Positions 26,385 through 39,391 of a stretch of DNA of 64,000 nt are shown piece after piece. Source of the DNA: Cryomorphaceae bacterium (GTDB lineage Bacteria; Bacteroidota; Bacteroidia; Flavobacteriales_D; Sanyastnellaceae); the NCBI GenBank assembly GCA_016124575.1, contig WGNM01000025.1:1-64000 (forward strand). Reading direction: 5' to 3'. The notes beneath the pieces are model-generated. The model was not told the origin of the DNA and did no database searches. It worked only from the letters and a program-made list of their open reading frames with translations. Within the stretch, counting starts at the first letter, position 1. The number at the start of each line of letters is the position of its first letter. A program made the position numbers and the translations under genes.

Positions 26385-26942
26385 TTGAAAACATTAGTAA
26401 AAGATATCGCGCACATACAAACAGGAATCTTCGCAAAGCCTGCGGGCATAGGTGAATTGGTGTATTTACAGTCTAGGCATTTTGACGAATACGGACGATT
26501 GATCTCGGTTCTCCACCCCGATTTGATGGCTGAAGGAATTTCTGAAAAGCACCTGCTGATAGACGGCGATGTGCTTTTTGCTGCAAAGGGTAATAAGAAT
26601 TTTGCAGTCGTTTATGATGATCATAATCCAGCTGCTGTTGCTTCTACTTCATTTTTTGTTTTAAGACCTACAGGCCAGATGGTATTGTCCAAATACTTGT
26701 CTTGGTTTCTAAATAGTCCCTTCGCGCAAATTCTGTTAAAGAGTCAAGCTATTGGGACTTCCATTCCTTCTATCTCTAAACAAACACTAGAGAATTTGGA
26801 AATGTCGGTTCCAAGTATTGAAATACAACAATCAATACTCAATATAAGCGAACTTCGGGACAAGGAGAAAAGAATAAAACTTCAAATTGAGAAGCTTCGC
26901 GAACTCCAGCTCCAACAACAAATAATAAACGCATTAAAATAA
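26385..26942 (+). CDS. hsdS: half-length type I specificity subunit (one TRD)
   Basis: This 185-residue protein has a single target-recognition domain (LVKDIAHIQTGIFAKPAGIG to TSIPSISKQTLENLEMSVPS) and one coiled-coil spacer (IEIQQSILNISELRDKEKRIK...LRELQLQQQIINALK). Full HsdS proteins carry two TRDs. No ATG is available in the open frame, so the TTG at 26385 is taken as start. A half subunit can dimerise to recognise a palindromic site, or assist the full HsdS encoded further down. It sits 5 nt upstream of hsdM. Confidence 0.75.
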   Translation: MKTLVKDIAHIQTGIFAKPAGIGELVYLQSRHFDEYGRLISVLHPDLMAEGISEKHLLIDGDVLFAAKGNKNFAVVYDDHNPAAVASTSFFVLRPTGQMVLSKYLSWFLNSPFAQILLKSQAIGTSIPSISKQTLENLEMSVPSIEIQQSILNISELRDKEKRIKLQIEKLRELQLQQQIINALK

Positions 26943-26947
26943 ATATC

Positions 26948-28504
26948 ATGGCTAAAATAACTCAGAAAGACATCAACGATGCAGTTTGGAAGGCATGCGA
27001 CACCTTTAGAGGTAGCATTGATCCAAGTGTTTACAAAGACTATGTGCTTACCATGTTGTTCTTGAAATACCTCAGCGATGTGCATGACGATAAAATGGAA
27101 GGCTATTTGGCTAAATACAACGGCGATGGAGAACGTGCTAAACGTGCCATGCAGCATGAACGCTTTCTTGTCCCCGAGCATAGCCATTTTAAGTTCCTGT
27201 ACGATTCTCGCAATGAAGCCAACATTGGGGAACTCATCAATATTGCATTGACAGATTTGGAAGAGGCCAACCGTGAGAAATTGTATAGTGAAGATGGCGC
27301 TGGAATATTCCAGAACATTGACTTTAACAACAGCAAACTCGGTGAGCCAAAAGACAAGAACACCCGTTTGAAAAATCTGTTGCTCGATTTCAACAAGGAG
27401 GCATTGAACTTGCGTCCTTCACATTTAGATGGCAACGACATTATTGGTGGGGCCTATGAGTATCTAATATCTAATTTCGCTAGTGATGCAGGCAAAAAAG
27501 CTGGTGAGTTCTACACGCCTAGCGAAGTATCTACCTTGCTAGCTAAGTTGACTCAAAGTAAACCGGGTTCCCGAATCTGCGATCCAACGTGTGGTTCAGG
27601 GTCATTGCTGATTAAAGCAGGCACAGAAGTAGGCTCAGACAATTTTTCATTATACGGCCAAGAGGCCAACGGCAGCACATGGGCATTGGCCGTAATGAAT
27701 ATGTTTTTGCATGGCTTTGACAATGCTACCATTCGTTGGGGAGATACCATACGTAACCCGAAACTGAAAGAAGGCGATACGCTGATGAAGTTTGACACCG
27801 TTGTGGCAAACCCGCCGTTCTCATTAGACAAATGGGGCAAGGTAGAAGATAAAGAAGGCGACAAAACTACCGTGAGTTACGACCCTGAAACAGACAAATA
27901 CAATCGCTTTTGGAGAGGCGTACCACCAAAGAGCAAAGGCGATTGGGCATTTATTTGTCACATGATCGAAACCTTGAACGAACATGGAAAAGCAGGTGTG
28001 GTTGTGCCGCATGGCGTATTGTTTCGTGGCAGCAGCGAAGGAAAGATCAGGCAAAAGACCATTGAAGAAAATTTGTTGGAAGCGGTTATTGGATTACCTG
28101 CCAACCTGTTTTTTGGTACAGGCATACCGGCAGCTATTTTAGTATTTAACAAGCAAAAGAGCAACAACAATGTATTGTTTATTGATGCCAGCAAACACTA
28201 CGAAAGTGTCAAAAACCAAAACAAGCTGCGTGAAAGTGACATCGAACATATCGTAAGCACTTATCGTGATTTTGTTGCTGGCAAACTGGAATCAGGTGTG
28301 GTAGAGGACAAGTACAGTTATGTGGCTAATCCCGAAGAAATACAGGAAAACGATTACAACTTGAATATTCCCCGCTATGTGGACACCTTTGAAGAAGAAG
28401 CGGAGGTGGATATTGCTGCGGTGCAAAAAGAGATTGAGCAACTAGAAGGAGAGTTGAAATCGGTGCAAGGTGAAATTGACAAGTATTTAAAGGAATTACT
28501 GTAA
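26948..28504 (+). CDS. hsdM: type I restriction-modification DNA methyltransferase subunit
   Basis: HsdM is the N6-adenine methyltransferase of the type I complex. The 518-residue protein has the N-terminal helical domain (MAKITQKDINDAVWKACDTF), EFYTP (187-191), the SAM-binding motif I DPTCGSGSLLI (212-222) and the catalytic motif IV NPPF (288-291). A long C-terminal coiled-coil contacts HsdS. All motifs are intact. Its stop codon overlaps the start of the SIR2-like gene (TAATG), so the two are translationally coupled. Confidence 0.95.
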   Translation: MAKITQKDINDAVWKACDTFRGSIDPSVYKDYVLTMLFLKYLSDVHDDKMEGYLAKYNGDGERAKRAMQHERFLVPEHSHFKFLYDSRNEANIGELINIALTDLEEANREKLYSEDGAGIFQNIDFNNSKLGEPKDKNTRLKNLLLDFNKEALNLRPSHLDGNDIIGGAYEYLISNFASDAGKKAGEFYTPSEVSTLLAKLTQSKPGSRICDPTCGSGSLLIKAGTEVGSDNFSLYGQEANGSTWALAVMNMFLHGFDNATIRWGDTIRNPKLKEGDTLMKFDTVVANPPFSLDKWGKVEDKEGDKTTVSYDPETDKYNRFWRGVPPKSKGDWAFICHMIETLNEHGKAGVVVPHGVLFRGSSEGKIRQKTIEENLLEAVIGLPANLFFGTGIPAAILVFNKQKSNNNVLFIDASKHYESVKNQNKLRESDIEHIVSTYRDFVAGKLESGVVEDKYSYVANPEEIQENDYNLNIPRYVDTFEEEAEVDIAAVQKEIEQLEGELKSVQGEIDKYLKELL

Positions 28505-29892
28505 TGAGTTACTCCCAAATACCACACGATTGGTTCAACTACCGAAACATATTCGGCAGGTATATCACCTATTGGGGCGACATCTATTCAGGAACGTTGA
28601 AGGAATGTCCAAATTACACAGATGGATTTTTCATCATACCTAATTATCATCTAGAAGCACTGCGTAATCTTACCGATGCCGAAAAAACTCCAAAACGTTT
28701 CAGAGAGCTTGGCCATGAAATTAAGGATCATAGAGTAGTGGTTGAAAAATATCCTGTTGACCCACACAGCCAAGAATTCAATTCCAGTCACGGACCAACG
28801 ATTAGTAAATCAGGACAGGAATTCAGCGATATGTTTGTCTTTGGCGCTGGCGCATCAGCATTTTGTTGCTTTGGTGATCACAAAGAACGCTATGAAAATG
28901 ATCAATGGCGTTCTCCTTTGGGGTACGACATATTCAATGAACGATATGATGAGTTGTGCACCCAATTTGATGGTGTTAAGCAGGCTATTCCAGAATTTGA
29001 GTTGAAAAATAACAACATCGAAGAATGTCTAGAAGCAGATTGGAACAAATACTGTAATTCATATATACCAGAACTTACCTATCGCCATATCAACATCCAG
29101 TTTTACTTACAAAAGCTGTTTCAGCGAATAAGTAAACATACTGTAGAGAAGTACTACCGAAAAAATCTCTATCAATTATTTACTGGACAGATCAAAACAC
29201 GAATTAGCCAAGAAGAATCATACAGACCTGTTATCGTCAATTTTAATTACGACACCATTCTCGACCAATTCCTTGACCAATCATTTGGATACAGCACAAT
29301 TCAGATCGATGAATATATTGACTGGCATAAACGATCATTCGTTCACTTTAAGCCACATGGGTCAAGCAATTGGGGTTGGAAATTCCCTCAAGAGGCAATT
29401 TCGAAATTGGGAAACAATATCCCTGCACGCCTATATCGTCAAAAAACAATTCCAGCCGAACTATTCTACTCGATTCTTGGTGAAAAAAAAAACATGGTGA
29501 ATCATTATTCCTATGGCTTTGAGAAAGGTAACAATACCATAAGCAAGCACTCTTTGGATAAATTGCAAATTCAAGTCATTGAGCATGAGTTTGCCTATCC
29601 TGCGTTGCTACTTCCGTTTAAAGACAAAGATGAATTTGTGATGCCATACCACCACCAAACGGCACTTGGTTATGTAATGTCGGATGTAAAGCGCATATTT
29701 ATAATCGGCTGGAAAGGCAGCGAGCAACTTTTTCTAGAAAAATTGAAGAATACAATTAACGTAAAAGAAGTTGTTATCGCTGATCCACAATTCGAAGTAG
29801 TGAAAAGAAATTTAGCTGCTTATCTTCCAGAGAATGTTATGTATACAGATGCAAAGGACTTTGAAAGTTTCATTAAAATGGAAATTATTTAA
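28504..29892 (+). CDS. SIR2-like domain protein inside the RM operon
   Basis: This 462-residue soluble protein is not a standard RM component. After an N-terminal region of about 110 residues that I do not recognise comes VFGAGASAF (112-120), the NAD-binding GAGAS of SIR2-type folds. NFNYDTILDQ (246-255) and FKPHGSSNW (282-290) correspond to the Asn-Tyr-Asp and His motifs of SIR2-like NADases, and IFIIGWKGSE (398-407) closes the Rossmann fold. Relatives in Thoeris, DSR and Sir2-pAgo systems destroy NAD on infection. It is coupled to hsdM by TAATG and abuts the membrane gene at 29893. An A10 tract lies at 29483-29492. NADase activity here is inference. Confidence 0.75.
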   Translation: MSYSQIPHDWFNYRNIFGRYITYWGDIYSGTLKECPNYTDGFFIIPNYHLEALRNLTDAEKTPKRFRELGHEIKDHRVVVEKYPVDPHSQEFNSSHGPTISKSGQEFSDMFVFGAGASAFCCFGDHKERYENDQWRSPLGYDIFNERYDELCTQFDGVKQAIPEFELKNNNIEECLEADWNKYCNSYIPELTYRHINIQFYLQKLFQRISKHTVEKYYRKNLYQLFTGQIKTRISQEESYRPVIVNFNYDTILDQFLDQSFGYSTIQIDEYIDWHKRSFVHFKPHGSSNWGWKFPQEAISKLGNNIPARLYRQKTIPAELFYSILGEKKNMVNHYSYGFEKGNNTISKHSLDKLQIQVIEHEFAYPALLLPFKDKDEFVMPYHHQTALGYVMSDVKRIFIIGWKGSEQLFLEKLKNTINVKEVVIADPQFEVVKRNLAAYLPENVMYTDAKDFESFIKMEII

Positions 29893-30540
29893 ATGAATAA
29901 TTTTTTTCGAAAGTATCAATGGAAGCTGGCATGGACAGGATTTGCTCTGATGCTCGTTGTCTTCGTCTTGATTGTATTGAATTACAACATTGAACACTGG
30001 TTTCCTACGTTTCTTCAATCATTTGGCATTGCTCTTACTCTTTATCCAACGGTGCTAATCTTTGTTCAAAGTAGAAAGGAAAGTGATAGATCATTGCAGA
30101 TTCAATTGGAGCACCTTCAAAAATTAAATCAGGATGAAATAAATGAAATGCGCCATCTTTTTCAAAAACAAATGGACGAATTCAAGCTTGGAACGAATGA
30201 GCAAGTTCAAGCCTTGTATGAGAGCACCCAAAAACAGATTGAACATTATGCAGAACAAACAGAAAAGATAATAGGGGAATTAAACACAAATTCTCAATTA
30301 CTTGCAGAAATTCTTTTACGTCAGCTAGAAGACGGTCTTGAAAAGGCCCATAAAGAAGTGAGCCGAGCTGAAGCTGCCTACCGAGATCTAAGTGGCTTTA
30401 AACTATTAAGATCAAAGCCTGAGCGGGAAGCCCAGTTGATTAAACAAAGAGGGATTATTGTCAGGTTAAAAGAATGGGTAAACTACCTACAATCCAAGTG
30501 CATAGAATTACATAATTATTTAGGTTATGACGAAAATTAA
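29893..30540 (+). CDS. two-helix membrane protein with long coiled coil, partner of the SIR2-like gene
   Basis: This 215-residue protein has two hydrophobic segments (about residues 12-30 and 40-58) separated by a short loop (NIEHWFPTFLQSF). A charged, Gln/Glu-rich helical region from about 62 to 150, predicted coiled coil, and a C-terminal basic-acidic helix follow. I recognise no enzyme motif. It starts directly after the SIR2-like stop codon (no gap) and overlaps hsdS by 14 nt. Its tight packing suggests it works with the SIR2-like protein, perhaps as a membrane anchor or oligomerisation scaffold; this is inference from position. Confidence 0.6.
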   Translation: MNNFFRKYQWKLAWTGFALMLVVFVLIVLNYNIEHWFPTFLQSFGIALTLYPTVLIFVQSRKESDRSLQIQLEHLQKLNQDEINEMRHLFQKQMDEFKLGTNEQVQALYESTQKQIEHYAEQTEKIIGELNTNSQLLAEILLRQLEDGLEKAHKEVSRAEAAYRDLSGFKLLRSKPEREAQLIKQRGIIVRLKEWVNYLQSKCIELHNYLGYDEN

Positions 30541-31681
30541 CGATACCAAAGCGTTTTATAATACAGAGATTCCGAGTGATTGGGTGATTGTTGATTTGGG
30601 GGTGATTGCCAAAATCAAGCACGGGCGTGACCAAAAACAAATTGAAGTTGAAAGTGGAATCTATCCAATATTAGCCACGGGTGGTGAAATAGGTAGAACA
30701 AATACACCTTTATATTCAAAGCCTTCTGTTTTAATTGGCAGAAAAGGTACTATCGACAAGCCAAAATACATGGATACTCCGTTTTGGACTGTTGATACTT
30801 TGTTCTACACTGAAATATCAGAACAGGTAGTTCCGCTTTGGCTATACTTCAAATTTGAAACGATTAATTGGTATTTATATAATGAAGCTTCTGGAGTTCC
30901 GAGTTTAAGTGGTTCAACAATTTCAAAAATCAAAATCCCCCTCCCCCCCCTCCCCGAGCAACGCGCCATAGCCCAGGTGCTGAGCACGGCAGATGCCGCC
31001 ATCCACACCACCGAAAAACTCATTGCCCAAAAAGAACTCCGCAAAAAATGGCTCATGCAGCAATTGCTCACGGGGAAGAAACGGTTGAAGGGGTTTGAGG
31101 GGGAGTGGAAGGAAATTCACATTCGTGATGTAGCTGAGGAAGTTAGCATCAGAAATAAAAGCGATAGACAGCTAACAGTTTTATCATGCACAAAATATAA
31201 TGGGCTTGTTCCTTCATTAGAATACTTCGGAAGAAAGATTTTTGCTGATGATGTTAGCACCTATAAGATTGTACCCAAAAACCATTTCGCCTATGCTACA
31301 AATCATATTGAAGAAGGAAGCATTGGTTATCAAGAAATTTTAAATGAAGCCTTAATCAGTCCGATGTACGCCGTTTTTAAAACTGATAAAACTGTCAATG
31401 ATAATTTCTTTTACAAACTTCTCAAATCACATCCGCTAGTATATCAATACCAAAATAGAATGGAAGGTTCTATTGACAGAAGAGGTGGATTGCGTTGGGA
31501 TGGTTTTTCAATTATAAAAATCAAATTACCATCACACGAAGAACAAACCGCCATTGCCCAAGTGCTGCAAGCTGCAGATAAAGAAATAAGTCTGCTCAAA
31601 GCCAAAGTGGAGAAGTTACGTGAGCAGAAAAAGGGCTTGATGCAGGTGTTGTTGACGGGGAAAAAACGATTGGTTTTTTAA
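30527..31681 (+). CDS. hsdS: type I restriction-modification specificity subunit (two TRDs)
   Basis: HsdS sets the DNA target of the methylase and the nuclease complex. The 384-residue protein has TRD1 (residues 1-145), a central conserved coiled coil beginning LPPLPEQRAIAQVLSTADAA and ending LLTGKKRLKGF, TRD2 (about 195-340) and a second copy of the coiled coil ending LLTGKKRLVF. The codons for the Pro-rich junction IPLPPLPEQ contain a C8 tract (30943-30950). A slip there would truncate the protein after TRD1. It overlaps the upstream membrane gene by 14 nt. Confidence 0.92.
   Translation: MTKINDTKAFYNTEIPSDWVIVDLGVIAKIKHGRDQKQIEVESGIYPILATGGEIGRTNTPLYSKPSVLIGRKGTIDKPKYMDTPFWTVDTLFYTEISEQVVPLWLYFKFETINWYLYNEASGVPSLSGSTISKIKIPLPPLPEQRAIAQVLSTADAAIHTTEKLIAQKELRKKWLMQQLLTGKKRLKGFEGEWKEIHIRDVAEEVSIRNKSDRQLTVLSCTKYNGLVPSLEYFGRKIFADDVSTYKIVPKNHFAYATNHIEEGSIGYQEILNEALISPMYAVFKTDKTVNDNFFYKLLKSHPLVYQYQNRMEGSIDRRGGLRWDGFSIIKIKLPSHEEQTAIAQVLQAADKEISLLKAKVEKLREQKKGLMQVLLTGKKRLVF
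30943..30950 (+). repeat. C8 homopolymer in hsdS, possible phase-variation tract
   Basis: Eight C residues flanked by CCCCCT and TCCCC sit at the junction of TRD1 and the central coiled coil, in an otherwise AT-leaning gene. Loss or gain of one base would leave a single-TRD product. Confidence 0.5.
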
Positions 31682-31682
31682 C

Positions 31683-32723
31683 ATGCCATACAATTCGAAC
31701 ATACACAACCGGAGATCCATCCGCCTGAAAGGATACGATTATTCGCAAGCAGGATTGTATTTTATTACCATCTGCGTGCAGGGTAGGAATTGTTTGTTGG
31801 GTGAAATTGTGGATGGTGCAATGATATTGAATGATGCAGGGCGGATGGTGGAAAAATGGTATCGTGAATTAGAAAATAAATTCCCCGACAAAAAATGCCA
31901 TGAAATGGTGGTAATGCCCAACCATTTCCATTGTATCATAGAAAATGTCGCAACCGTAGGGGCAGACCTGCGTGTCTGCCCCGATGATGCCAACAAACCG
32001 TCCATTTTGGGCGAACCATTATCGGGCGATTCATCATTGGGCGATTCATTATCGGGCGATTCATTATTGGGCGATTCATTATCGGGCGATTCATTATCGG
32101 GCGATTCATTATCGGGCGATTCATTATTGGGCGATTCATTATCGGGCGATTCATTATTGGGCGAACCATTATTGGGCGAACCATTATCGGGCGATTCATT
32201 ATTGGGCGAACCATTATCGGGCGATTCATCATTGGGCGATTCATTATCGGGCGATTCATTATCGGGCGATTCATTATCGGGCGATTCATTATTGGGCGAA
32301 CCATTATTGGGCGAACCATTATCGGGCGAACCATTATTGGGCGAACCATTATCGGGCGAACCATTATTGGGCGATTCATTATCGGGCGAACCATTATTGG
32401 GCGATTCATTATTGGGCGAACCATTATTGGGCGATTCATTATCGGGCGAACCATTATTTGGCGAACCATTATTGGGCGAACCATTATCGGGCGAACACGC
32501 AGGTTCGCCCCTACATCGTGCGGTGCAATGGTTCAAAACCATGTCAACCAATGAATACATTCGTGGTGTGAAACAATTGGGATGGCAACCATTCAATGGT
32601 AAATTGTGGCAACGCAATTATTGGGAACACATCATTCGTGATGGTCAATCCTATCAACGCATTTCGGAATACATCATCAATAATCCGAAAAATTGGGAAA
32701 ACGATAAATTAATTGGAAATTAA
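31683..32723 (+). CDS. REP-associated tyrosine transposase (RAYT) with an in-frame minisatellite
   Basis: This is a Y1/HUH transposase-like protein. The N-terminal part has RRSIRLKGYDYSQAGLYFIT, the HUH motif MPNHFHCII (HFH at 81-83) and the preceding NDAGRMVEKWYREL. The C-terminal part has WFKTMSTNEYIRGVKQ, LWQRNYWEHIIRD and the probable catalytic tyrosine in SEYIINNP (Y330). Between them lie a REP-like hairpin (codons 92-100), 32 pentapeptide repeats (residues 109-268; LGEPL, SGDSL and variants) and a second REP-like hairpin. Normal relatives lack the 160-residue repeat, so activity is doubtful. The start lies 2 nt after hsdS. Confidence 0.8.
   Translation: MPYNSNIHNRRSIRLKGYDYSQAGLYFITICVQGRNCLLGEIVDGAMILNDAGRMVEKWYRELENKFPDKKCHEMVVMPNHFHCIIENVATVGADLRVCPDDANKPSILGEPLSGDSSLGDSLSGDSLLGDSLSGDSLSGDSLSGDSLLGDSLSGDSLLGEPLLGEPLSGDSLLGEPLSGDSSLGDSLSGDSLSGDSLSGDSLLGEPLLGEPLSGEPLLGEPLSGEPLLGDSLSGEPLLGDSLLGEPLLGDSLSGEPLFGEPLLGEPLSGEHAGSPLHRAVQWFKTMSTNEYIRGVKQLGWQPFNGKLWQRNYWEHIIRDGQSYQRISEYIINNPKNWENDKLIGN
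31956..31983 (+). repeat. REP-like hairpin 1 inside the RAYT gene
   Basis: GTAG then GGGGCAGAC (31959-31967), a 6-nt loop, and GTCTGCCCC (31974-31982). It is the inverted counterpart of the element at 32489-32514, with GCAGAC in place of GCGAAC and matching changes on the other arm. Confidence 0.7.
32007..32486 (+). repeat. 15-bp minisatellite, 32 units
   Basis: There are thirty-two tandem 15-bp units of the form TTGGGCGAACCATTA with two variable sites: TTG or TCG at the start, and GAACCA or GATTCA in the middle. The unit length keeps the RAYT frame open, and no unit has a stop in five of the six frames. The last partial unit merges into REP-like hairpin 2. The shared GGGCGAAC suggests that the array grew out of that hairpin arm. 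Confidence 0.9.
32489..32514 (-). repeat. REP-like hairpin 2 inside the RAYT gene
   Basis: GGGCGAAC (32489-32496), loop ACGCAG, GTTCGCCC (32503-32510), then CTAC. Read on the minus strand it begins GTAGGGGCGAAC, so it faces hairpin 1 across the minisatellite. Confidence 0.7.
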
Positions 32724-32725
32724 AA

Positions 32726-33490
32726 ATGCCAGTAACTATACAATACGCTTCCGACCTCCATTTAGAATTCCCTGCCAACAAGGAGTTTTTAAAGCAACAT
32801 CCGTTGCAGTCGGTGGGTGATGTATTGGTTTTGGCGGGGGATGTTGTGCCGTTTGCGGTGATGGATCAGCACCAAGATTTTTTCAGCTATGTAGCAGACA
32901 ACTTTAAAATTACCTATTGGCTGCCGGGCAATCATGAATACTACCATTTTGATTTAGCCGAAAAAAGTGGTGTGTTGCATGAAGCCATTCGCAGTAATGT
33001 GTTTTTGGTCAACAATACTGCGGTGGTGCATGAAGGTGTGAAATTGATTTTCTCTACTCTTTGGAGCAAGATCAGTCCAGGTCACCAATGGCAAATTGAA
33101 CGCAGACTGAATGATTTTCATTTGATTAAACATAAAGGCTATCGCTTTTCGGCAGAGCAATACAATCAACTGCATGCTGAAAGTTTAATGTTTATTCAAA
33201 CTGAGGTCAATACAAACAAGGAGCAAAAAACAGCCGTTTTCACCCATCACTGCCCCACTTTTCTCAACTATCCTGAGCAATACAAGGGAGATGTACTCAA
33301 TGAGGCTTTTGCGGTGGAATTGTATGACCTGATTGAAGCGTCCGAAATTGCCTGCTGGGTGTATGGGCATCATCATACTAACACGCCTGAGTTCACCATT
33401 GGCAATACCAAGCTAATAACCAATCAAATGGGCTATGTGCAAGGAAATGAACATCGGCTTTTTCAATCTAATAAAGTCATTGAAATATGA
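32726..33490 (+). CDS. calcineurin-like metallophosphoesterase
   Basis: This 254-residue protein has the dimetal site motifs in order: ASDLHLEF (D-x-H), LAGDVV (G-D), LPGNHEYY (G-N-H-E), FTHHCPT and GHHHTN. It is a complete, probably cytosolic phosphoesterase with no signal peptide. The start is 2 nt after the RAYT stop. The substrate is unknown; in this setting nucleotides or nucleic acids are plausible. It lies between hsdS and the AbiE-like pair, and its relation to the RM system is inferred only from position. Confidence 0.87.
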   Translation: MPVTIQYASDLHLEFPANKEFLKQHPLQSVGDVLVLAGDVVPFAVMDQHQDFFSYVADNFKITYWLPGNHEYYHFDLAEKSGVLHEAIRSNVFLVNNTAVVHEGVKLIFSTLWSKISPGHQWQIERRLNDFHLIKHKGYRFSAEQYNQLHAESLMFIQTEVNTNKEQKTAVFTHHCPTFLNYPEQYKGDVLNEAFAVELYDLIEASEIACWVYGHHHTNTPEFTIGNTKLITNQMGYVQGNEHRLFQSNKVIEI

Positions 33491-33500
33491 AAATCAGCAC

Positions 33501-33559
33501 AATAAACCTATATTTGCACAATAAAGTATATAGCTTTATCAAGCATAATCAGGTTTATT
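33501..33559 (+). promoter_or_regulatory. promoter and nested inverted repeats upstream of the AbiE-like pair
   Basis: AATAAACCT (33501-33509) and AGGTTTATT (33551-33559) are perfect inverted repeats that bracket a -7 box TATATTTG (33509-33516). A second palindrome ATAAAG-N7-CTTTAT lies at 33521-33539. AbiEi proteins are known to repress their own operon by binding inverted repeats, so this is the likely operator. Confidence 0.55.
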
Positions 33560-34582
33560 ATGGAAAGTAAAATGAGGAAAACGTTAACATATATTGAGGA
33601 AACGCTGGGCATACAGCCAACTGTCACGCAAATAGCCAAAAGCTATCTAGACAAACTTCCCATGTACGTCCATGAAACGTTCAATCTGTGCCGAACACAA
33701 TTCTTCAACACGGAAATCATTTTGGCTGAGCTGAAAAACGATAATGAACTAAGCATTCAGCAAACCGAAAAACAGGTGAAGCAAATAAAAAACCTGCTCC
33801 ACCAAAAAGTGGTGGTCGTGTTGGAAAACGTACAAGCCTACAACCGCAAACGCTTAATTGAAAAAGGCATCAACTTTATAGTGCCGGGAAAACAACTTTA
33901 CATGCCCGAATTGCTGATTGACTTGCGGGAAAATTTCGGACATCCGAAGACAAGACAAAAAAATGAGACATTGCTTCCATCTGCACAATTTTTACTGATT
34001 TACCACATCATCCATAGACACCACCAATGGAAACTGGAAGAACATCCCTTTAAAGAAATTGCTCAGAAATTAGGTTATACGCCAATGGCAATCACCAATG
34101 CTATTGACAATTTGAAATACCATGAGTTAATAGATGTTGAGGGCGAAAAAGAGAAATTCATCCGTTTTCGAAATGAAAGGCATGAGTTATGGAACATAGC
34201 CTATCAACAAAACCTTTTGGTGAATCCTGTCATTAAAACGGTGTATGTAGATGAAAAGCCAAAAGACCTTTTTCTATTGCATAGCAATGCATCTGCCTTA
34301 TCTGAATACACCGATTTGAACCCAAGCAGGCAGGAATATTTTGCTATTGAAAAAACTGTTTTCTATGGTTTGCAGAAAAGCAATGCATTGGTAAATCCGA
34401 ATGAAAATGAAGGCAGGTATGCTTTGGAGGTATGGAAATATAACCCATTGACATTGGTGGACGAGTTACCAAATGACAGGGCGGTTGTAGATCCACTTTC
34501 TTTATACCTGAGTGTGAAGGAAAGCAGAGATGAACGCATTGAAATGGCATTAGACCAAATTTTAGAGAAATTTATATGGTAA
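33560..34582 (+). CDS. winged-helix antitoxin-like protein (AbiEi-type)
   Basis: This 340-residue protein has a central winged-helix-like region (LLIYHIIHRHHQWKLEEHPFKEIAQKLGYTPMAITNAIDNLKYHELIDVEG). N-terminal (1-120) and C-terminal (200-340) domains of the type found in AbiEi-like antitoxins of type IV toxin-antitoxin systems surround it. Its 3' end overlaps the nucleotidyltransferase gene by 7 nt, the usual antitoxin-toxin order. The assignment relies mainly on gene pairing and the HTH. It could also be a MarR-like regulator of the toxin gene. Confidence 0.6.
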   Translation: MESKMRKTLTYIEETLGIQPTVTQIAKSYLDKLPMYVHETFNLCRTQFFNTEIILAELKNDNELSIQQTEKQVKQIKNLLHQKVVVVLENVQAYNRKRLIEKGINFIVPGKQLYMPELLIDLRENFGHPKTRQKNETLLPSAQFLLIYHIIHRHHQWKLEEHPFKEIAQKLGYTPMAITNAIDNLKYHELIDVEGEKEKFIRFRNERHELWNIAYQQNLLVNPVIKTVYVDEKPKDLFLLHSNASALSEYTDLNPSRQEYFAIEKTVFYGLQKSNALVNPNENEGRYALEVWKYNPLTLVDELPNDRAVVDPLSLYLSVKESRDERIEMALDQILEKFIW

Positions 34583-35355
34583 GAGGATTAGACATTTTCA
34601 AAGAATACTTTGAGCAGTATCCCGAAAATTATGTCATTATCGGTGGTACTGCCTGTGACATTATAATTGATGAAGCTGGCTTTGTTCCCAGAGCCACCAA
34701 GGATATAGATATTATTTTGGTGGTGGAAGCACTTAGTTCACCATTTGTAAAACAGTTTTGGCAATTCATTAATGATGGCAAGTATCAGCAAAGGGAAAAA
34801 AGTAATGACGAAAGAGAGTATTACCGATTTATTAAACCGGAGAATACTGAATTTCCTCATCAGATAGAACTTTTCTCAAGAACTCCCGATGTGATTGTTT
34901 TAGAAGGCGAAGCACATTTGACACCTATTCCGGTTGATGATGACTTGTCCAGTTTGTCAGCCATCCTATTGAATGATGACTATTACAATTACATGATTGA
35001 ACACAGTCAGATGGAAGATGGCTTGCATTATGCCAATATTGAAGCCTTGATTTGTTTGAAAGCAAAGGCATTTTTGGAAATCAAAGAAAGAATTGAAAAT
35101 GGAAGTAAGGAAGATGCAAAGCAGTTGAGAAAGCATAAAGCAGACGTGTTTCGTTTAGCTGTGATGCTCACGCCTGAATCAGAATTTGATTTGCCTAAAA
35201 CCATACAAGACCACTTGAATCAGTTTGCTGAATTGACGGCTGGCGATTTACCAGACAAGTCTATTTTTAAAGAAATGGGATTGAGCAATATTGACCCGAT
35301 CAATGTATTTGAGCAGTTCAAAAAATCATTTGGAGTGAGTGTAAATGAAGAATAG
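34576..35355 (+). CDS. AbiEii-type nucleotidyltransferase toxin
   Basis: This 259-residue nucleotidyltransferase has IIGGTACDIIIDE (G-G-T/A near residue 24) and RATKDIDIILVV, whose D-x-D corresponds to the catalytic carboxylates of the DNA polymerase beta fold. A later conserved EALICLKAKAF segment holds the lysine typical of AbiEii/AbiGii proteins. These toxins can modify tRNA 3' ends and act in abortive infection. It is coupled to the antitoxin-like gene by a 7-nt overlap. Toxicity is inferred from family membership. Confidence 0.75.
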   Translation: MVRGLDIFKEYFEQYPENYVIIGGTACDIIIDEAGFVPRATKDIDIILVVEALSSPFVKQFWQFINDGKYQQREKSNDEREYYRFIKPENTEFPHQIELFSRTPDVIVLEGEAHLTPIPVDDDLSSLSAILLNDDYYNYMIEHSQMEDGLHYANIEALICLKAKAFLEIKERIENGSKEDAKQLRKHKADVFRLAVMLTPESEFDLPKTIQDHLNQFAELTAGDLPDKSIFKEMGLSNIDPINVFEQFKKSFGVSVNEE

Positions 35356-35468: not shown

Positions 35469-38400
35469 ATGGACACACCAAGTTTTAAAGAAGACCACAT
35501 CAGTCAGATTCCTGCATTGCAGATGCTGGTGAATTTGGGTTATACGTATTTAAGTCCAACAGAAGCCGACAGGCAAAGAGGTGGCAAAACCACCAGTGTA
35601 TTATTGGAAGATGTGTTACGGAAACAGTTGAAGGAAATCAACAGCATCAGAGTGAGCGCCACCAAAACCAGCATCTTCACAGACGACAATATTGAACGGG
35701 GCATTTTGGCATTGAAAAACCTGCCCATGAACGAAGGCTATATTGCAGCCAGCGAAAAGGCCTACAATCTGCTCACTTTGGGTCAGGCATTGGAGCAAAG
35801 TGTAGATGGCGACAAAAAGAGTTTTACCCTTCAATACATCGACTGGAAAAATATCAGCAACAATGTTTTTCATGTAAGCGAAGAATTCAGCGTAATGCGA
35901 AGCACCAGCAAAGAGCATTATCGTCCCGATTTGGTGCTGTTTGTCAATGGCATTCCGCTTTGCATCATCGAGTGCAAACGACCAGATATGAAAGAGCCCT
36001 TGAAACAGGCTATCAGTCAGCATTTGCGGAATCAGCAAGAAGATGGAATCAGAAGCTTGTATGTGTATTCGCAACTCACCTTAAGCATTGCCACACAAGA
36101 AGCCGCTTATGCAACCAATGCCACACCCGAAAAGTTTTGGGCCAAATGGCAGGAAAAGTTTAGCAGCGATACAGAAGAACGCGACTACAAAATCAATTTA
36201 CAGGAACTTAAAAACAAGCCGCTACCGATTTCAATAAAAGAACAATTGTTTTCTGATCGCTTCAAATACGTTCGTCAATACTTTGATGCACTGGAACAAG
36301 AGGGAATTCTACCTACTGAACAAGACAATTATTTGTATGGATTGTGCCGCCCTGAAAGATTGATGGACATTGTTTTCAATTTTGTATTGTTCGACAATGG
36401 AGCCAAGAAGGTAGCTCGCTATCAGCAGTTTTTTGCCATCAAAAAATCCATGCAACGCATTCGAAATGTAGCGAATGGAAAACGCAGAGGTGGTGTAATT
36501 TGGCATACACAAGGAAGCGGAAAATCATTAACAATGGTGATGTTGGCGCAAGCCATTGCCATGGAGCCAAGTATTCGTAATCCAAAAATCGTTTTGGTAA
36601 CTGATAGAACAGACTTAGACAATCAGATTACAGGAACATTTCGAAAGTGTGGCAGATTTGTAGAAAATGCAACCACAGGTCAACGGTTGGTTGAACTATT
36701 AGAAAACAAAAGTGATGCAGTGGTAACCACCATCATCAACAAATTTGTGGCGGCAGTTAAGAAAATAGATAAGCCTTTAGAGAGCCACGATATTTTTGTG
36801 TTGGTTGATGAAGGACACCGAACACAGCATGGCACGTTTAATATCGATATGCAAAAGACGCTGCCAAATGCCTGTTTTATTGCCATGACGGGTACACCCT
36901 TATTCAAGAAAGACAAAAGCACAGCAGAAAAGTTTGGAGGAATGATCGATGCTTATACCGTTGATCAAGCAGTAAAAGACAAAGCAGTTGTTCCCTTGCT
37001 TTATGAAGGTAGATTGGCGTTGCAAAATGTAAATGCAAGTCCGATTGATACGTTTTTCGGAATGGTTTCAGAGCCGTTAACCGAATACCAAAAGGCAGAC
37101 ATCAAAAAGAAATTTGCCCGGTATGACCACTTGAATTTTGCCGAACAAAAAATGCGAATGATTGCCTGGGACATCAGCTATCATTTTCGTGATAACTGGC
37201 AAAGTACAACACCCTTTAAAGGTCAGTTGGTTTGCGATAAGAAAGTGAATGCCATCAAGTATAAAGAATACTTGGATGAAATTGGCATAGTTAGCTGTGA
37301 AGTATTGATCTCGTCGATAGACGAAAGAGAAGGTGAAGAAAGTGCTTATGAGAAGTCAACAGAGAAAGAAAATCAATTTTGGAAAAAAATGATGGACGAA
37401 CATGGCAATTCAAAAAGCTCTGAAAAGAACATCATCAGCCGTTTCAAAAATCAGAAAGACCCGGAAATCATTATTGTAGTTGACAAATTGCTTACAGGTT
37501 TTGATGAACCCAAAAACACAGTTTTATATCTCACGAGGAATTTACAAAGCCATAAACTTTTGCAAGCTATTGCAAGGGTAAATCGCATCTATCCCGATAA
37601 GGAATTCGGCTACATCATTGACTATTATGGAGTGATTGAAAATTTAGATGATGCTTTGCAATTGTATTCGTCTTTCGAAGATTTTGACGAGGAAGATTTG
37701 GCGGGAACACTCACCAACATTTCGGATGAAATCAAAAAGCTACCACAAAAGCATTCAGAGCTTTGGGATATTTTCAAAACTGTTGCCAACAAACGCGATG
37801 CAGAAGCCTATCAGCAATTATTGAAAGATGAAGCGATAAGGGTTCTTTTTTACGATAAACTGGCGGCCTTTGCCAAAGGTTTGAAATTGGCATTGTCTTC
37901 TATTCAATTTCATAGAGAAGTGGAAGAGAAATTAATCAATCGTTACAAAGATGACTTGGCAATGTTTTTAAAAATGCGTTTGGCTGTAGTGGAACGATTT
38001 AGCGATGAAATTGACTACAAACAATACGAAGGGCAAATTCAAAAGCTAATTGACACACACATCACCACAGAGAAAATAGAAACCATTACAGAACTGGTAA
38101 ACATTTTCGACAAAGATAAATTTCAGCAAGAAGTAGAAAATACGACAGGCAAAGCAGCCAAAGCCGACAAAATTGCCAGTAGAACAGCGAAACACATTTC
38201 AGAAAAAATGGATGAAGATCCTGCTTTCTACAAAAAGTTTTCGCAAATGTTGACAGAAACCATTGCCGACTATGAAGCCAAACGAATCAATGAGGCACAA
38301 TACCTGAGCAGAGTTCAAGACATCATGAACAATGTTTTGGCTTATACCGACAATGATATTCCAGAACAATTGAAGGAACGAGATGTTGCCAAAGCCTTTT

Positions 38401-38696
38401 ATGGGTTGACAGTTGAGGCATTATCTGAAAAAATTCAAGACAATATAGTTCGAAAAGAAGTCGCAACACAAATGGCTTTACAAATTGACGACCTGATTCA
38501 AGATGCTGTTTTAGACCATGGAAAACCCATTGTTGACTGGCAATATAAAACAAACATCACAGGAAAATTACTGATTGAAATTGGCGACTATCTTATTGAT
38601 GAAGTAAGAGACAAATACAGTTTAGACCTTCCCTTCAAGGATATGGACAAGATTGCTGAAGATTGTGTTGAAGTGGCCAAAATCCGATACAAGTAA
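35469..38696 (+). CDS. hsdR: type I restriction endonuclease subunit R
   Basis: HsdR supplies the ATP-driven translocase and the nuclease of the type I complex. The 1075-residue protein has the PD-(D/E)xK nuclease site (RPDLVLF with D154, then ECKRP at 168-172), Walker A TQGSGKS (347-353), DEGH (447-450) and SF2 motif III MTGTP. A C-terminal helicase segment (LLTGFDEPKNT, LQAIARVNR) and a helical C-terminus follow. All catalytic motifs are present. It is separated from hsdM by about 7 kb of inserted genes and overlaps the next gene by TAATG. Confidence 0.95.
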   Translation: MDTPSFKEDHISQIPALQMLVNLGYTYLSPTEADRQRGGKTTSVLLEDVLRKQLKEINSIRVSATKTSIFTDDNIERGILALKNLPMNEGYIAASEKAYNLLTLGQALEQSVDGDKKSFTLQYIDWKNISNNVFHVSEEFSVMRSTSKEHYRPDLVLFVNGIPLCIIECKRPDMKEPLKQAISQHLRNQQEDGIRSLYVYSQLTLSIATQEAAYATNATPEKFWAKWQEKFSSDTEERDYKINLQELKNKPLPISIKEQLFSDRFKYVRQYFDALEQEGILPTEQDNYLYGLCRPERLMDIVFNFVLFDNGAKKVARYQQFFAIKKSMQRIRNVANGKRRGGVIWHTQGSGKSLTMVMLAQAIAMEPSIRNPKIVLVTDRTDLDNQITGTFRKCGRFVENATTGQRLVELLENKSDAVVTTIINKFVAAVKKIDKPLESHDIFVLVDEGHRTQHGTFNIDMQKTLPNACFIAMTGTPLFKKDKSTAEKFGGMIDAYTVDQAVKDKAVVPLLYEGRLALQNVNASPIDTFFGMVSEPLTEYQKADIKKKFARYDHLNFAEQKMRMIAWDISYHFRDNWQSTTPFKGQLVCDKKVNAIKYKEYLDEIGIVSCEVLISSIDEREGEESAYEKSTEKENQFWKKMMDEHGNSKSSEKNIISRFKNQKDPEIIIVVDKLLTGFDEPKNTVLYLTRNLQSHKLLQAIARVNRIYPDKEFGYIIDYYGVIENLDDALQLYSSFEDFDEEDLAGTLTNISDEIKKLPQKHSELWDIFKTVANKRDAEAYQQLLKDEAIRVLFYDKLAAFAKGLKLALSSIQFHREVEEKLINRYKDDLAMFLKMRLAVVERFSDEIDYKQYEGQIQKLIDTHITTEKIETITELVNIFDKDKFQQEVENTTGKAAKADKIASRTAKHISEKMDEDPAFYKKFSQMLTETIADYEAKRINEAQYLSRVQDIMNNVLAYTDNDIPEQLKERDVAKAFYGLTVEALSEKIQDNIVRKEVATQMALQIDDLIQDAVLDHGKPIVDWQYKTNITGKLLIEIGDYLIDEVRDKYSLDLPFKDMDKIAEDCVEVAKIRYK

Positions 38697-39391
38697 TGAC
38701 CGAGACGATACAATTTGGAAGTAAAACAATTGATTTTCGTTTGGAGTATTCAGACAGAAAATCGCTTGGTATTACAGTCACTCCCGAAATGGAAGTGTTG
38801 GTGAAAGCCCCGACAGACACATCCATCGAAAAAGTGAAAGAGAAAATCAGGAAAAAAGCACCTTGGATTATCAAACAACAAAGCTTCTTTCTTTCCTTTC
38901 AACCAAAGACACCCCAGCGTAGGTACATAAGTGGTGAAACCCATTTGTATTTAGGCAGACAATATCGCTTGCAAATTGAAATTGATAAGGAAGAATCGGT
39001 AAAATTGAAAGGCAAGTTCCTTGTAGTAACTGCAATCGAAAAATCAAGAGCTAAAGCCTTACTAGAGGATTGGTATTTGCAACATGCTCGAACAAAGGTT
39101 CAAGCAATTGCTGCTCCTTTGATTGACAAATTCAAAAAGCACAAGGTTGAACCAAGTTCTATTGTATTGCGAGAAATGCCGACACGTTGGGGAAGTTGCA
39201 CACCAAAAGGAAAAATCATTTTAAATCCTGAATTGATTAAGGCACCCAAGGGCTGTATCGAATATGTAATCGTTCATGAGCTATGTCATTTGGTACACCA
39301 CGACCACACTCAGAAATTTATTGATTTACAGACCAGGGAAATGAAAGAATGGGAAAAGTGGAAGATGAAATTAGAGAAATTATTGGCATAA
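38696..39391 (+). CDS. M48-type metallopeptidase, YgjP/DUF45 family
   Basis: This 231-residue protein has a zinc motif VHELCHLVHHDH (H-E-x-x-H and a third histidine) and the upstream conserved LREMPTRWGSCTPKGKIILNPELI, which together define the YgjP-like family. These genes are very often the last gene of type I RM operons, where their role is unknown. It is translationally coupled to hsdR by TAATG. A weak terminator-like structure follows. It marks the right end of the island. Confidence 0.87.
   Translation: MTETIQFGSKTIDFRLEYSDRKSLGITVTPEMEVLVKAPTDTSIEKVKEKIRKKAPWIIKQQSFFLSFQPKTPQRRYISGETHLYLGRQYRLQIEIDKEESVKLKGKFLVVTAIEKSRAKALLEDWYLQHARTKVQAIAAPLIDKFKKHKVEPSSIVLREMPTRWGSCTPKGKIILNPELIKAPKGCIEYVIVHELCHLVHHDHTQKFIDLQTREMKEWEKWKMKLEKLLA

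Follow-up and report, generated by a model that had tools for sequence, protein, structure and literature searches.

We analyzed a 64,000-nucleotide stretch of Cryomorphaceae bacterium DNA (contig WGNM01000025.1; hereafter the window), which carries on its plus strand one type I restriction-modification (RM) operon whose hsdM, hsdS and hsdR genes were all matched by Pfam and PADLOC, and in which a gene for a SIR2-like protein is lodged between hsdM and hsdS. We favor, with a probability of roughly 0.6, the reading that this protein is an autonomous abortive-infection effector of the SIR2-fold NADase type, carried as cargo at an accessory position of the operon. The analysis directly supports its predicted SIR2 fold, the conservation of its motifs, its position, the exchangeability of the cargo and the lack of linkage to the membrane-protein gene that follows it in the window.

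Two open reading frames (ORFs), 28504–29892 (462 aa, the SIR2 gene) and 29893–30540 (215 aa, termed TMCC for its membrane and coiled-coil segments), fill the hsdM–hsdS interval. The stop codon of hsdM (26948–28504) shares bases with the ATG of the SIR2 gene in a TAATG junction, TMCC begins at the base directly after the end of the SIR2 gene (29893; zero gap), and the start of hsdS (30527–31681) overlaps the end of TMCC by 14 nucleotides. The gapless packing described in an earlier note on this DNA was in this way reproduced at all three joins by the ORFs.

The same note had recognized the 462-residue protein as SIR2-like from three motifs, an identification that held up in both the alignment of its relatives and the modeled fold. 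Within 19 aligned rows, G114, A115, A117, S118, F247, N248, D250, K283, H285 and G286 were, among other residues, invariant, and G116 was almost so, being replaced by alanine in the relative at locus L008. The relative at L004, which is not one of these rows, likewise reads GAAAS for GAGAS. We take GAGAS to be the nucleotide-binding loop and likewise presume the roles of the catalytic residues. The AlphaFold2 model had a predicted local distance difference test score (pLDDT) of 92.4 and a predicted template modeling score of 0.92, and split into an N-terminal domain (residues ~1–104) and a SIR2 domain (~104–462). The best structural alignment by VIA-align was to the SIR2 protein of SIR2-HerA (8wld; Z 17.1, rmsd 4.0, 259 residues aligned across residues 104–460, 14% identity), followed by other SIR2 proteins of SIR2-HerA (Z 14–17), SPARSA (13.5), KomBC (12.9), ThsA (12.6 over 219 residues) and the sirtuins (~12–13.5). 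SIR2 chains of SIR2-HerA were also top-ranked in Foldseek (E 1.5e-8). At the level of sequence profiles, Pfam SIR2_2 matched 7 of the 19 family members at E ≤ 0.1 (best 2.7e-6) and the PADLOC SIR2 model PDLC04082 matched 4 of the 19 (best 6.5e-8), the window protein being in neither group. The earlier note had proposed searching both proteins of the pair against defense-system profiles; the window SIR2 protein was without a significant match there, PDLC04082 was found in those four relatives, and TMCC gave weak matches only. A profile search of PDB sequences returned four rows at chance level, among them ThsA with a sub-threshold E of 1.2, whose alignment spans the motifs and was used solely as a motif hint (NFNYD versus NYD, KPHG versus KMHG). 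Together, the model and the alignment indicate that the protein has a predicted SIR2 fold with conserved active-site motifs, and NAD+ hydrolysis is its likely activity.

Apart from L016, whose contig begins at the SIR2 gene, every Bacteroidota protein in the alignment has the N-terminal domain, which is lacking in the two Nocardioides proteins. An unrecognized N-terminal domain of about 110 residues had been noted earlier; its presence and the lack of a recognized family were borne out, at a somewhat smaller size of ~104 residues. Folded alone, the domain reached a pLDDT of 84.6, and Foldseek gave no match for it at E ≤ 0.001, the best being a spliceosomal chain at 0.038. VIA-align returned mostly Hfq with Z 5–6, the top row being GatDE with 6.2. 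Because these Z values lie under the tool's stated noise level of 7–8, the resemblance to a small barrel of the Sm/Hfq type is only a hint. A sensor or oligomerization role would naturally fall to this domain.

The family is rare. Two relatives, 37 and 34% identical to the window protein, were detected in the 299 genomes of the same order, placing the gene in 3 of 299 including the window. A three-row alignment then retrieved 18 loci (16 Bacteroidota, 2 Nocardioides) from a genome collection of 84,980 species according to the tool description, a number that is a lower bound because the scan relied on two short peptide patterns. The resulting family set of 20 comprises the window, L004 and L006–L023, where L005 and L010 are one locus, L081–L084 correspond to L017, L021, L014 and L007, and a partial match (L085) and a weak match (G210) stand outside the count. 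The 19-row alignment (A2), which was also used for folding, contains the window protein and 18 relatives; L004 was left out there and included in the tree. A further alignment (A3) omits three rows, namely L016, which is cut by a contig end, and the Nocardioides pair without the N-terminal domain. In a sample of 395 genomes from the phylum, a single-protein search detected the gene in one, the window's own, and in a sample of the class an alignment search at E ≤ 1e-10 found it in 7 of 395, five of which were already among the known loci. Single-protein scans for close relatives in viral contigs, plasmids and phages returned none, and a scan of viral contigs with the three-row alignment gave 214 pattern matches, none of them a relative.

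Six of the 20 family members reside in RM loci, four of type I (window, L004, L006, L007) and two with an Eco57I-type methylase (L011, L015). Within the type I operons the SIR2 gene stands alone in L006, after a Fic gene in L007 and after a GIY-YIG-looking gene in L004. At L011 it lies behind the Eco57I-type methyltransferase gene with a 4-nucleotide overlap, if the GTG start is right, and at L015 34 nucleotides behind it. Elsewhere the gene follows Shango SngABC together with an HNH gene (L019), or has as its neighbor Avs2 on the opposite strand (L017), a COR-TIR gene (L016) or a phosphoesterase that matches PDC-S10 weakly (L012). At L014 (L014:6813-9395) it follows a TrwB/HerA-like ATPase gene (with a mad8-like match as well) by 30 nucleotides, possibly a pair of the SIR2-HerA type with an extra N-terminal domain. 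Nine members (L008, L009, L010, L013, L018, L020–L023) have no recognized defense neighbor, in a count based on BLAST with the window Hsd proteins and on profile scans of selected neighbors; L008 has a borderline PIN-TPR-GreABC match upstream, and in L018 the opposite strand matches PDC-S39 weakly.

In the tree, the window, L006 and L007 form a clade supported at 100/100, which L004, L008 and the Eco57I-linked L015 join at 87/91. The second Eco57I-linked member, L011, pairs with L016 (100/99) elsewhere; support for the deep branches is not strong. Since the L011–L016 group sits in another part of the tree, the gene probably became linked to RM loci on more than one occasion. Between the SIR2 genes of the window, L006 and L007, nonsynonymous divergence (dN) was 0.22–0.25 with synonymous sites saturated (proportion of synonymous differences, pS, 0.76–0.84), and the corresponding hsdM genes had a dN of 0.05–0.06 and a synonymous divergence (dS) of 1.7–2.0. 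These estimates indicate that the SIR2 gene is under purifying selection and point to its having been kept, or exchanged, at the hsdM–hsdS position over a long time.

To place this position in context, HsdM was searched against the 299 genomes of the order at E ≤ 1e-100, giving 27 positive genomes with 28 loci. We compared 22 loci from 21 genomes, consisting of the window, L004 and 20 fetched loci (L054–L073, of which L061 and L073 belong to one genome) with HsdM 56–89% identical, leaving out G625 (57%) and five loci at 43–49% HsdM identity; L006 and L007, having been found through the SIR2 gene, stand outside the 22. The operon backbone is constant. A match to halfS, a short hsdS-like gene, precedes hsdM in all 22 loci and in L007, the contig of L006 beginning inside the operon, and ygjP follows hsdR in 19 of 22, that is, the window and 18 others, comprising all loci with DNA past hsdR, as it also does in L007. 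The halfS gene evolves fast, with ~63% identity to its counterparts in L007 and L054 where HsdM is 89–91% identical, and a full hsdS is usually present too; halfS could have a regulatory function or supply an alternative element of specificity.

Set in this backbone are two junctions that hold exchangeable cargo differing between loci. Counting ORFs of at least 70 aa on the operon strand in the hsdM–hsdS interval, a gene other than hsdS follows hsdM in 15 of 22 loci, and hsdS follows directly in the other seven (L054, L055, L061, L062, L066, L069, L071). The interval holds the SIR2 gene in two loci (window, L004), a three-gene cassette of phosphoesterase, helix-turn-helix (HTH) and nucleotidyltransferase genes in six (with further genes in L057 and L058), Fic and Bro-N genes in L056 and L060 (Bro-N of L056 by Pfam, the others by clustering with scanned proteins), a cyclase of the CBASS (cyclic-oligonucleotide-based antiphage signaling system) type with a second gene in L068, RhuM (PDC-S05) in L072 and a 116-aa ORF of no identity in L073. 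In L067 a gene that by eye is presumably GIY-YIG-like follows hsdM, hsdS not being reached, and the contig of L070 ends within a further gene, a partial ORF that we take from a motif read by eye to be DUF1016-like. The genes L004:7069-7803 and L067:4609-5727, presumably GIY-YIG from motifs likewise read by eye, overlap the hsdM stop and have long repeat-rich tails, possibly marking mobile or homing cargo.

The second junction, between hsdS and hsdR, contains at least one ORF in 16 of 19 evaluable loci, many of these ORFs being without identification. Its cargo includes a class II prokaryotic Argonaute (pAgo; L054), a patatin with a DncV-like cyclase, that is CBASS (L055, and L062 by cluster), a DUF4917 protein with SIR2-like motifs (L060), a PtuA-like, Septu-like ATPase (L072) and a YhcG nuclease (L073). 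The DUF4917 (PDC-S21) protein, encoded at L060:7786-8868 on the minus strand with GNGFS, NYD and HG motifs by eye, is a second, different SIR2-like cargo. The cassette lies in this junction in the window (32726–35355) and in the hsdM–hsdS junction in L057, L058, L059, L063, L064 and L065. Its nucleotidyltransferase-like member has a weak resemblance to AbiEii in 2 of 7 loci and to DUF6036 in 1 of 7, and PADLOC gave a clear match for the phosphoesterase only (PDC-S10, 1.5e-9). We consider the cassette a good defense candidate.

The comparison is closest among operons with nearly the same methyltransferase. In L054, whose HsdM is 89% identical to that of the window, hsdS begins where hsdM stops. 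L006 and L007 (HsdM 92 and 91%) instead have the SIR2 gene ahead of hsdS, the joins being TAATG or ATGA overlaps (ATGA for hsdM/SIR2 in L006) except around the Fic gene of L007. Cargo is therefore exchangeable across related operons, and we read the SIR2 gene as such cargo and not as a subunit of the restriction enzyme; the presence of unrelated recognized defense genes at the same junctions points the same way. The gene likewise shows the pattern of 'guilt-by-embedding', lying between core genes in the window, L004, L006 and L007 with 7 of the 22 related operons free of any insert at this place.

We propose that an infection cue would be sensed by the family-specific N-terminal domain or by the SIR2 assembly, whereupon the SIR2 domain would deplete NAD+ and kill or stall the infected cell, providing a second layer once restriction fails. 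Membership in the operon would give coupled expression with hsdM and joint transfer, and physical union with the RM complex would not be required. The trigger, the independence from HsdMSR and the role in phage defense are what we infer. Autonomy is favored by the 14 of 20 family members for which BLAST with the window Hsd proteins and profile scans of selected neighbors found no adjacent RM gene, a count to be read with the facts that L009 is a 3.1-kb contig, that L016 starts at the SIR2 gene, that the neighbors of L010, L013 and L020–L023 fell outside the profile scans and that an ORF 4.4 kb downstream in L014 has weak HsdM similarity (27%, 7e-9). These limits belong to a set of observations that weigh against the proposal. 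Searched as a single sequence, the window SIR2 protein had zero significant matches in Pfam, PADLOC, NCBIfam and PDB sequences, and the Foldseek TM-scores were modest: among the first 20 rows, the SIR2-HerA chains scored 0.37–0.44 when normalized by query length (0.37 in the first row), at an rmsd of 7–10. In all four type I loci the gene lies between hsdM and hsdS, and the hsdS–hsdR interval, which could be examined in two of the four, did not contain it. Furthermore, it directly follows a methyltransferase gene in four of the six RM loci (window, L006, L011, L015), and its retention in the window, L006 and L007 despite saturated synonymous sites is long for a free passenger.

The positional observations are those expected if the SIR2 protein were a guard of the type I enzyme, held silent by HsdM or HsdMS and freed to deplete NAD+ when a phage anti-restriction protein blocks the complex, as PrrC does in EcoprrI; the earlier note had suggested a guard released by a block of the RM complex, with the membrane protein as scaffold. 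Its fixed place in all type I occurrences, its habit of following methyltransferase genes and its persistence in three deeply diverged loci speak for such a guard, and the first two are why we keep the idea in view. Counted over the family, co-occurrence cuts both ways: it is complete with respect to the hsdM–hsdS interval of the type I loci, but only 6 of the 20 homologues lie in RM loci at all, and the members for which no adjacent RM gene was seen argue against a strict need for one. In addition, among the related hsdM operons without the SIR2 gene, seven have hsdS directly after hsdM and 13 carry other or unresolved cargo, and systems that would not be expected to depend on HsdM are found at these junctions too. 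We consider a guard unlikely. Similarly improbable in our view is a broader form of the idea, in which a SIR2 NADase subfamily, its N-terminal domain possibly a small β-barrel, would apparently have been recruited more than once to a place directly behind adenine methyltransferase genes, of both the type I HsdM and the Eco57I type, and be released upon a block of modification or a loss of methylation; if true, restriction operons would be two-stage immune systems with NAD depletion as a backup.

The autonomous-effector reading also presupposes that the SIR2 domain acts as an NADase. It could instead be an NAD-dependent protein-modifying enzyme or an inactive sensor of NAD or ADP-ribose, as the Z values of the deacylase sirtuins, on par with those of SPARSA and ThsA, and the GAAAS variant of L004 and L008 would allow; yet the top matches, above the sirtuins, are the defense SIR2 proteins of SIR2-HerA, and the asparagine, aspartate and histidine of the motifs are invariant, rendering this quite improbable. 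There is only a slim chance that the protein responds to what the adjacent adenine methyltransferase (type I or Eco57I type) produces or to the state of that enzyme, for example by sensing the loss of self-methylation. Its location behind both HsdM and Eco57I-type methyltransferases, apparently in two parts of a tree whose deep branches are not strongly supported, would fit such a link, but most members have no adjacent methyltransferase that we could see, and the N-terminal domain resembles Sm/Hfq-type barrels weakly and below noise.

For TMCC, 19-residue Kyte–Doolittle windows exceeding 1.2 start at residues 8–23 and 38–42, giving two hydrophobic stretches in agreement with the two membrane helices read from the sequence earlier, and a coiled coil is probable, judged from reading the sequence. 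Of the 20 family members, only the SIR2 gene of the window has TMCC as its neighbor, and tblastn of TMCC against the fetched loci yielded the window's own copies only. Of the 299 genomes of the order, two gave a match, that of the window and G414, the latter a marginal coiled-coil match (E 8e-4 over 90 residues) that was left uncounted; eight stretches in viral contigs included no relative, and plasmids gave none. In L006 and L007, whose SIR2 proteins are 70 and 64% identical to that of the window, the SIR2 stop overlaps the hsdS start with no gene between, and the hsdS that follows has an N-terminus common to all three loci (TKAFYNTEIP-DW type, TRAFYNTEIP in L007). TMCC was either inserted between SIR2 and hsdS in the window lineage or lost elsewhere, and because SIR2 abuts an hsdS with a shared N-terminus in L006 and L007, insertion is probable. 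TMCC is thus probably a second, unrelated passenger independent of the SIR2 gene. A joint module of the two genes, in which the membrane protein would act as anchor or sensor and to which the zero gap, the overlap with hsdS and the weak PADLOC matches of TMCC to HEC-01B (E 0.004) and ZorA (E 0.013) might have pointed, is very improbable given its single occurrence and the direct SIR2–hsdS contact in L006 and L007. It was dropped as the leading explanation, no relative of TMCC having been found in the other loci examined, and the scaffold function once assigned to the membrane protein is disfavored with it. Taken over the family, the SIR2 homologues lean towards occurring without the membrane gene and outside RM loci, the direction that the earlier note had named as counting against its idea.

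Compared with known systems, the window protein is closest to SIR2-HerA (Nezha), the best fold match of its residues 104–460, from which it differs by the extra ~104-residue N-terminal domain. ThsA of Thoeris shares the SIR2 domain, with NYD and HG aligned in the sub-threshold profile match; ThsA has a C-terminal ligand-binding domain, and Thoeris additionally has a ThsB/TIR partner, whereas the SIR2 alignments of the window protein run to residues 460–462 of 462 and leave no such domain. Among 10 operon genes scanned with Pfam, we found no match for a HerA-type partner, a TIR gene or the Piwi domain of an Argonaute partner as in SPARSA. DSR1 and DSR2 are single-gene SIR2 effectors with their own sensor, a long C-terminal domain; the window protein would likewise be a single-gene SIR2 effector, but has 462 residues and its extra domain at the N-terminus. 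PrrC, an anticodon nuclease in the EcoprrI type I locus, is held silent by the RM complex. By analogy, the SIR2 protein would be a suicide effector within a type I hsd locus, of a different enzymatic kind.

The embedding of defense genes in type I operons is already known. TgvAB of Vibrio cholerae, a type IV-like restriction system embedded in a type I operon, protects alone, though less than the whole cluster, according to the excerpted text of PMC11411939, and the excerpted text of PMC12255303 places the toxin–antitoxin system DarTG2 between hsdS and hsdR in the RRDM island of enteropathogenic Escherichia coli (EPEC), together with a gene for an M48-type metallopeptidase comparable to the window ygjP. 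'Guilt-by-embedding' defense candidates in type I operons go back to a preprint, as cited in the excerpts of PMC12988326 and PMC11411939. As described in these excerpts, TgvAB and DarTG2 resemble the window in placing unrelated defense genes between the hsd genes of one operon, and differ in occupying the hsdS–hsdR position, where the window SIR2 gene occupies the hsdM–hsdS position. Among the papers listed in a literature search, judged by title and abstract opening and with preprints outside its scope, none described a type I RM operon that harbors a SIR2 gene. The SIR2 subfamily and the two-slot comparison appear to be new.

The features of the operon are collected in Table 1. The window has a second set of extra genes in its hsdS–hsdR interval (31683–35355), beginning with a transposase-like gene that contains an in-frame array of 32.4 copies of a 15-bp unit (32009–32494), across which two plus-strand and two minus-strand frames remain open. 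A gene related to it likewise follows hsdS in L056. The GC content is 0.377 for the SIR2 gene, 0.364 for TMCC and 0.434 for hsdM, with halfS, hsdS, hsdR and ygjP at 0.38–0.40. An argument from base composition for the SIR2 and membrane genes was abandoned because their values, while below that of hsdM, are close to those of these other operon genes.

Table 1 Genes and motifs of the type I restriction-modification operon in the window.
Feature	Coordinates	Strand	Basis
halfS, HsdS-like, 185 aa, one target-recognition domain, TTG start	26385–26942	+	Pfam Methylase_S 9.3e-8
hsdM, type I adenine methyltransferase subunit	26948–28504	+	Pfam N6_Mtase 4.5e-103, HsdM_N 6.7e-24
SIR2-like gene, 462 aa	28504–29892	+	ORF, 19-row alignment, AlphaFold2 model, Foldseek/VIA-align
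GAGAS motif, residues 114–118	28843–28857	+	19-row alignment
NFNYD motif, residues 246–250 (N248, D250)	29239–29253	+	19-row alignment
KPHG motif, residues 283–286 (H285, candidate catalytic histidine)	29350–29361	+	19-row alignment
TMCC, 215 aa, two hydrophobic segments, probable coiled coil	29893–30540	+	ORF, hydropathy
hsdS, specificity subunit, two target-recognition domains	30527–31681	+	Pfam Methylase_S 3.1e-28, two stretches
REP-associated tyrosine transposase-like gene, hsdS–hsdR cargo	31683–32723	+	NCBIfam REP_Tyr_transpos 4.7e-16, 59 bits, under the cut-off of 80
Metallophosphoesterase, hsdS–hsdR cargo	32726–33490	+	Pfam Metallophos 1.7e-12
HTH protein, hsdS–hsdR cargo	33560–34582	+	Counterpart genes in six related loci
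Nucleotidyltransferase-like, hsdS–hsdR cargo	34576–35355	+	Counterpart genes in six related loci
hsdR, type I restriction subunit	35469–38696	+	Pfam HSDR_N 4.2e-37, SWI2_SNF2 8.7e-78
YgjP-like metallopeptidase	38696–39391	+	Pfam YgjP-like 5.5e-52

The question of guard versus cargo is directly testable, since naturally occurring operons at ~90% HsdM identity differ in whether they contain the SIR2 gene. The analysis adds a SIR2 subfamily that is mostly missed by profile libraries and that comes with a candidate sensor domain. Moreover, one Bacteroidota lineage of type I operons apparently has two recurrent insertion points for pAgo, CBASS, Fic, SIR2 and uncharacterized cassettes, and the two-junction anatomy of this operon platform merits a study of its own. 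With two such recurrent insertion points, these operons can serve as a search tool, in which unfamiliar genes at the junctions become good defense candidates.

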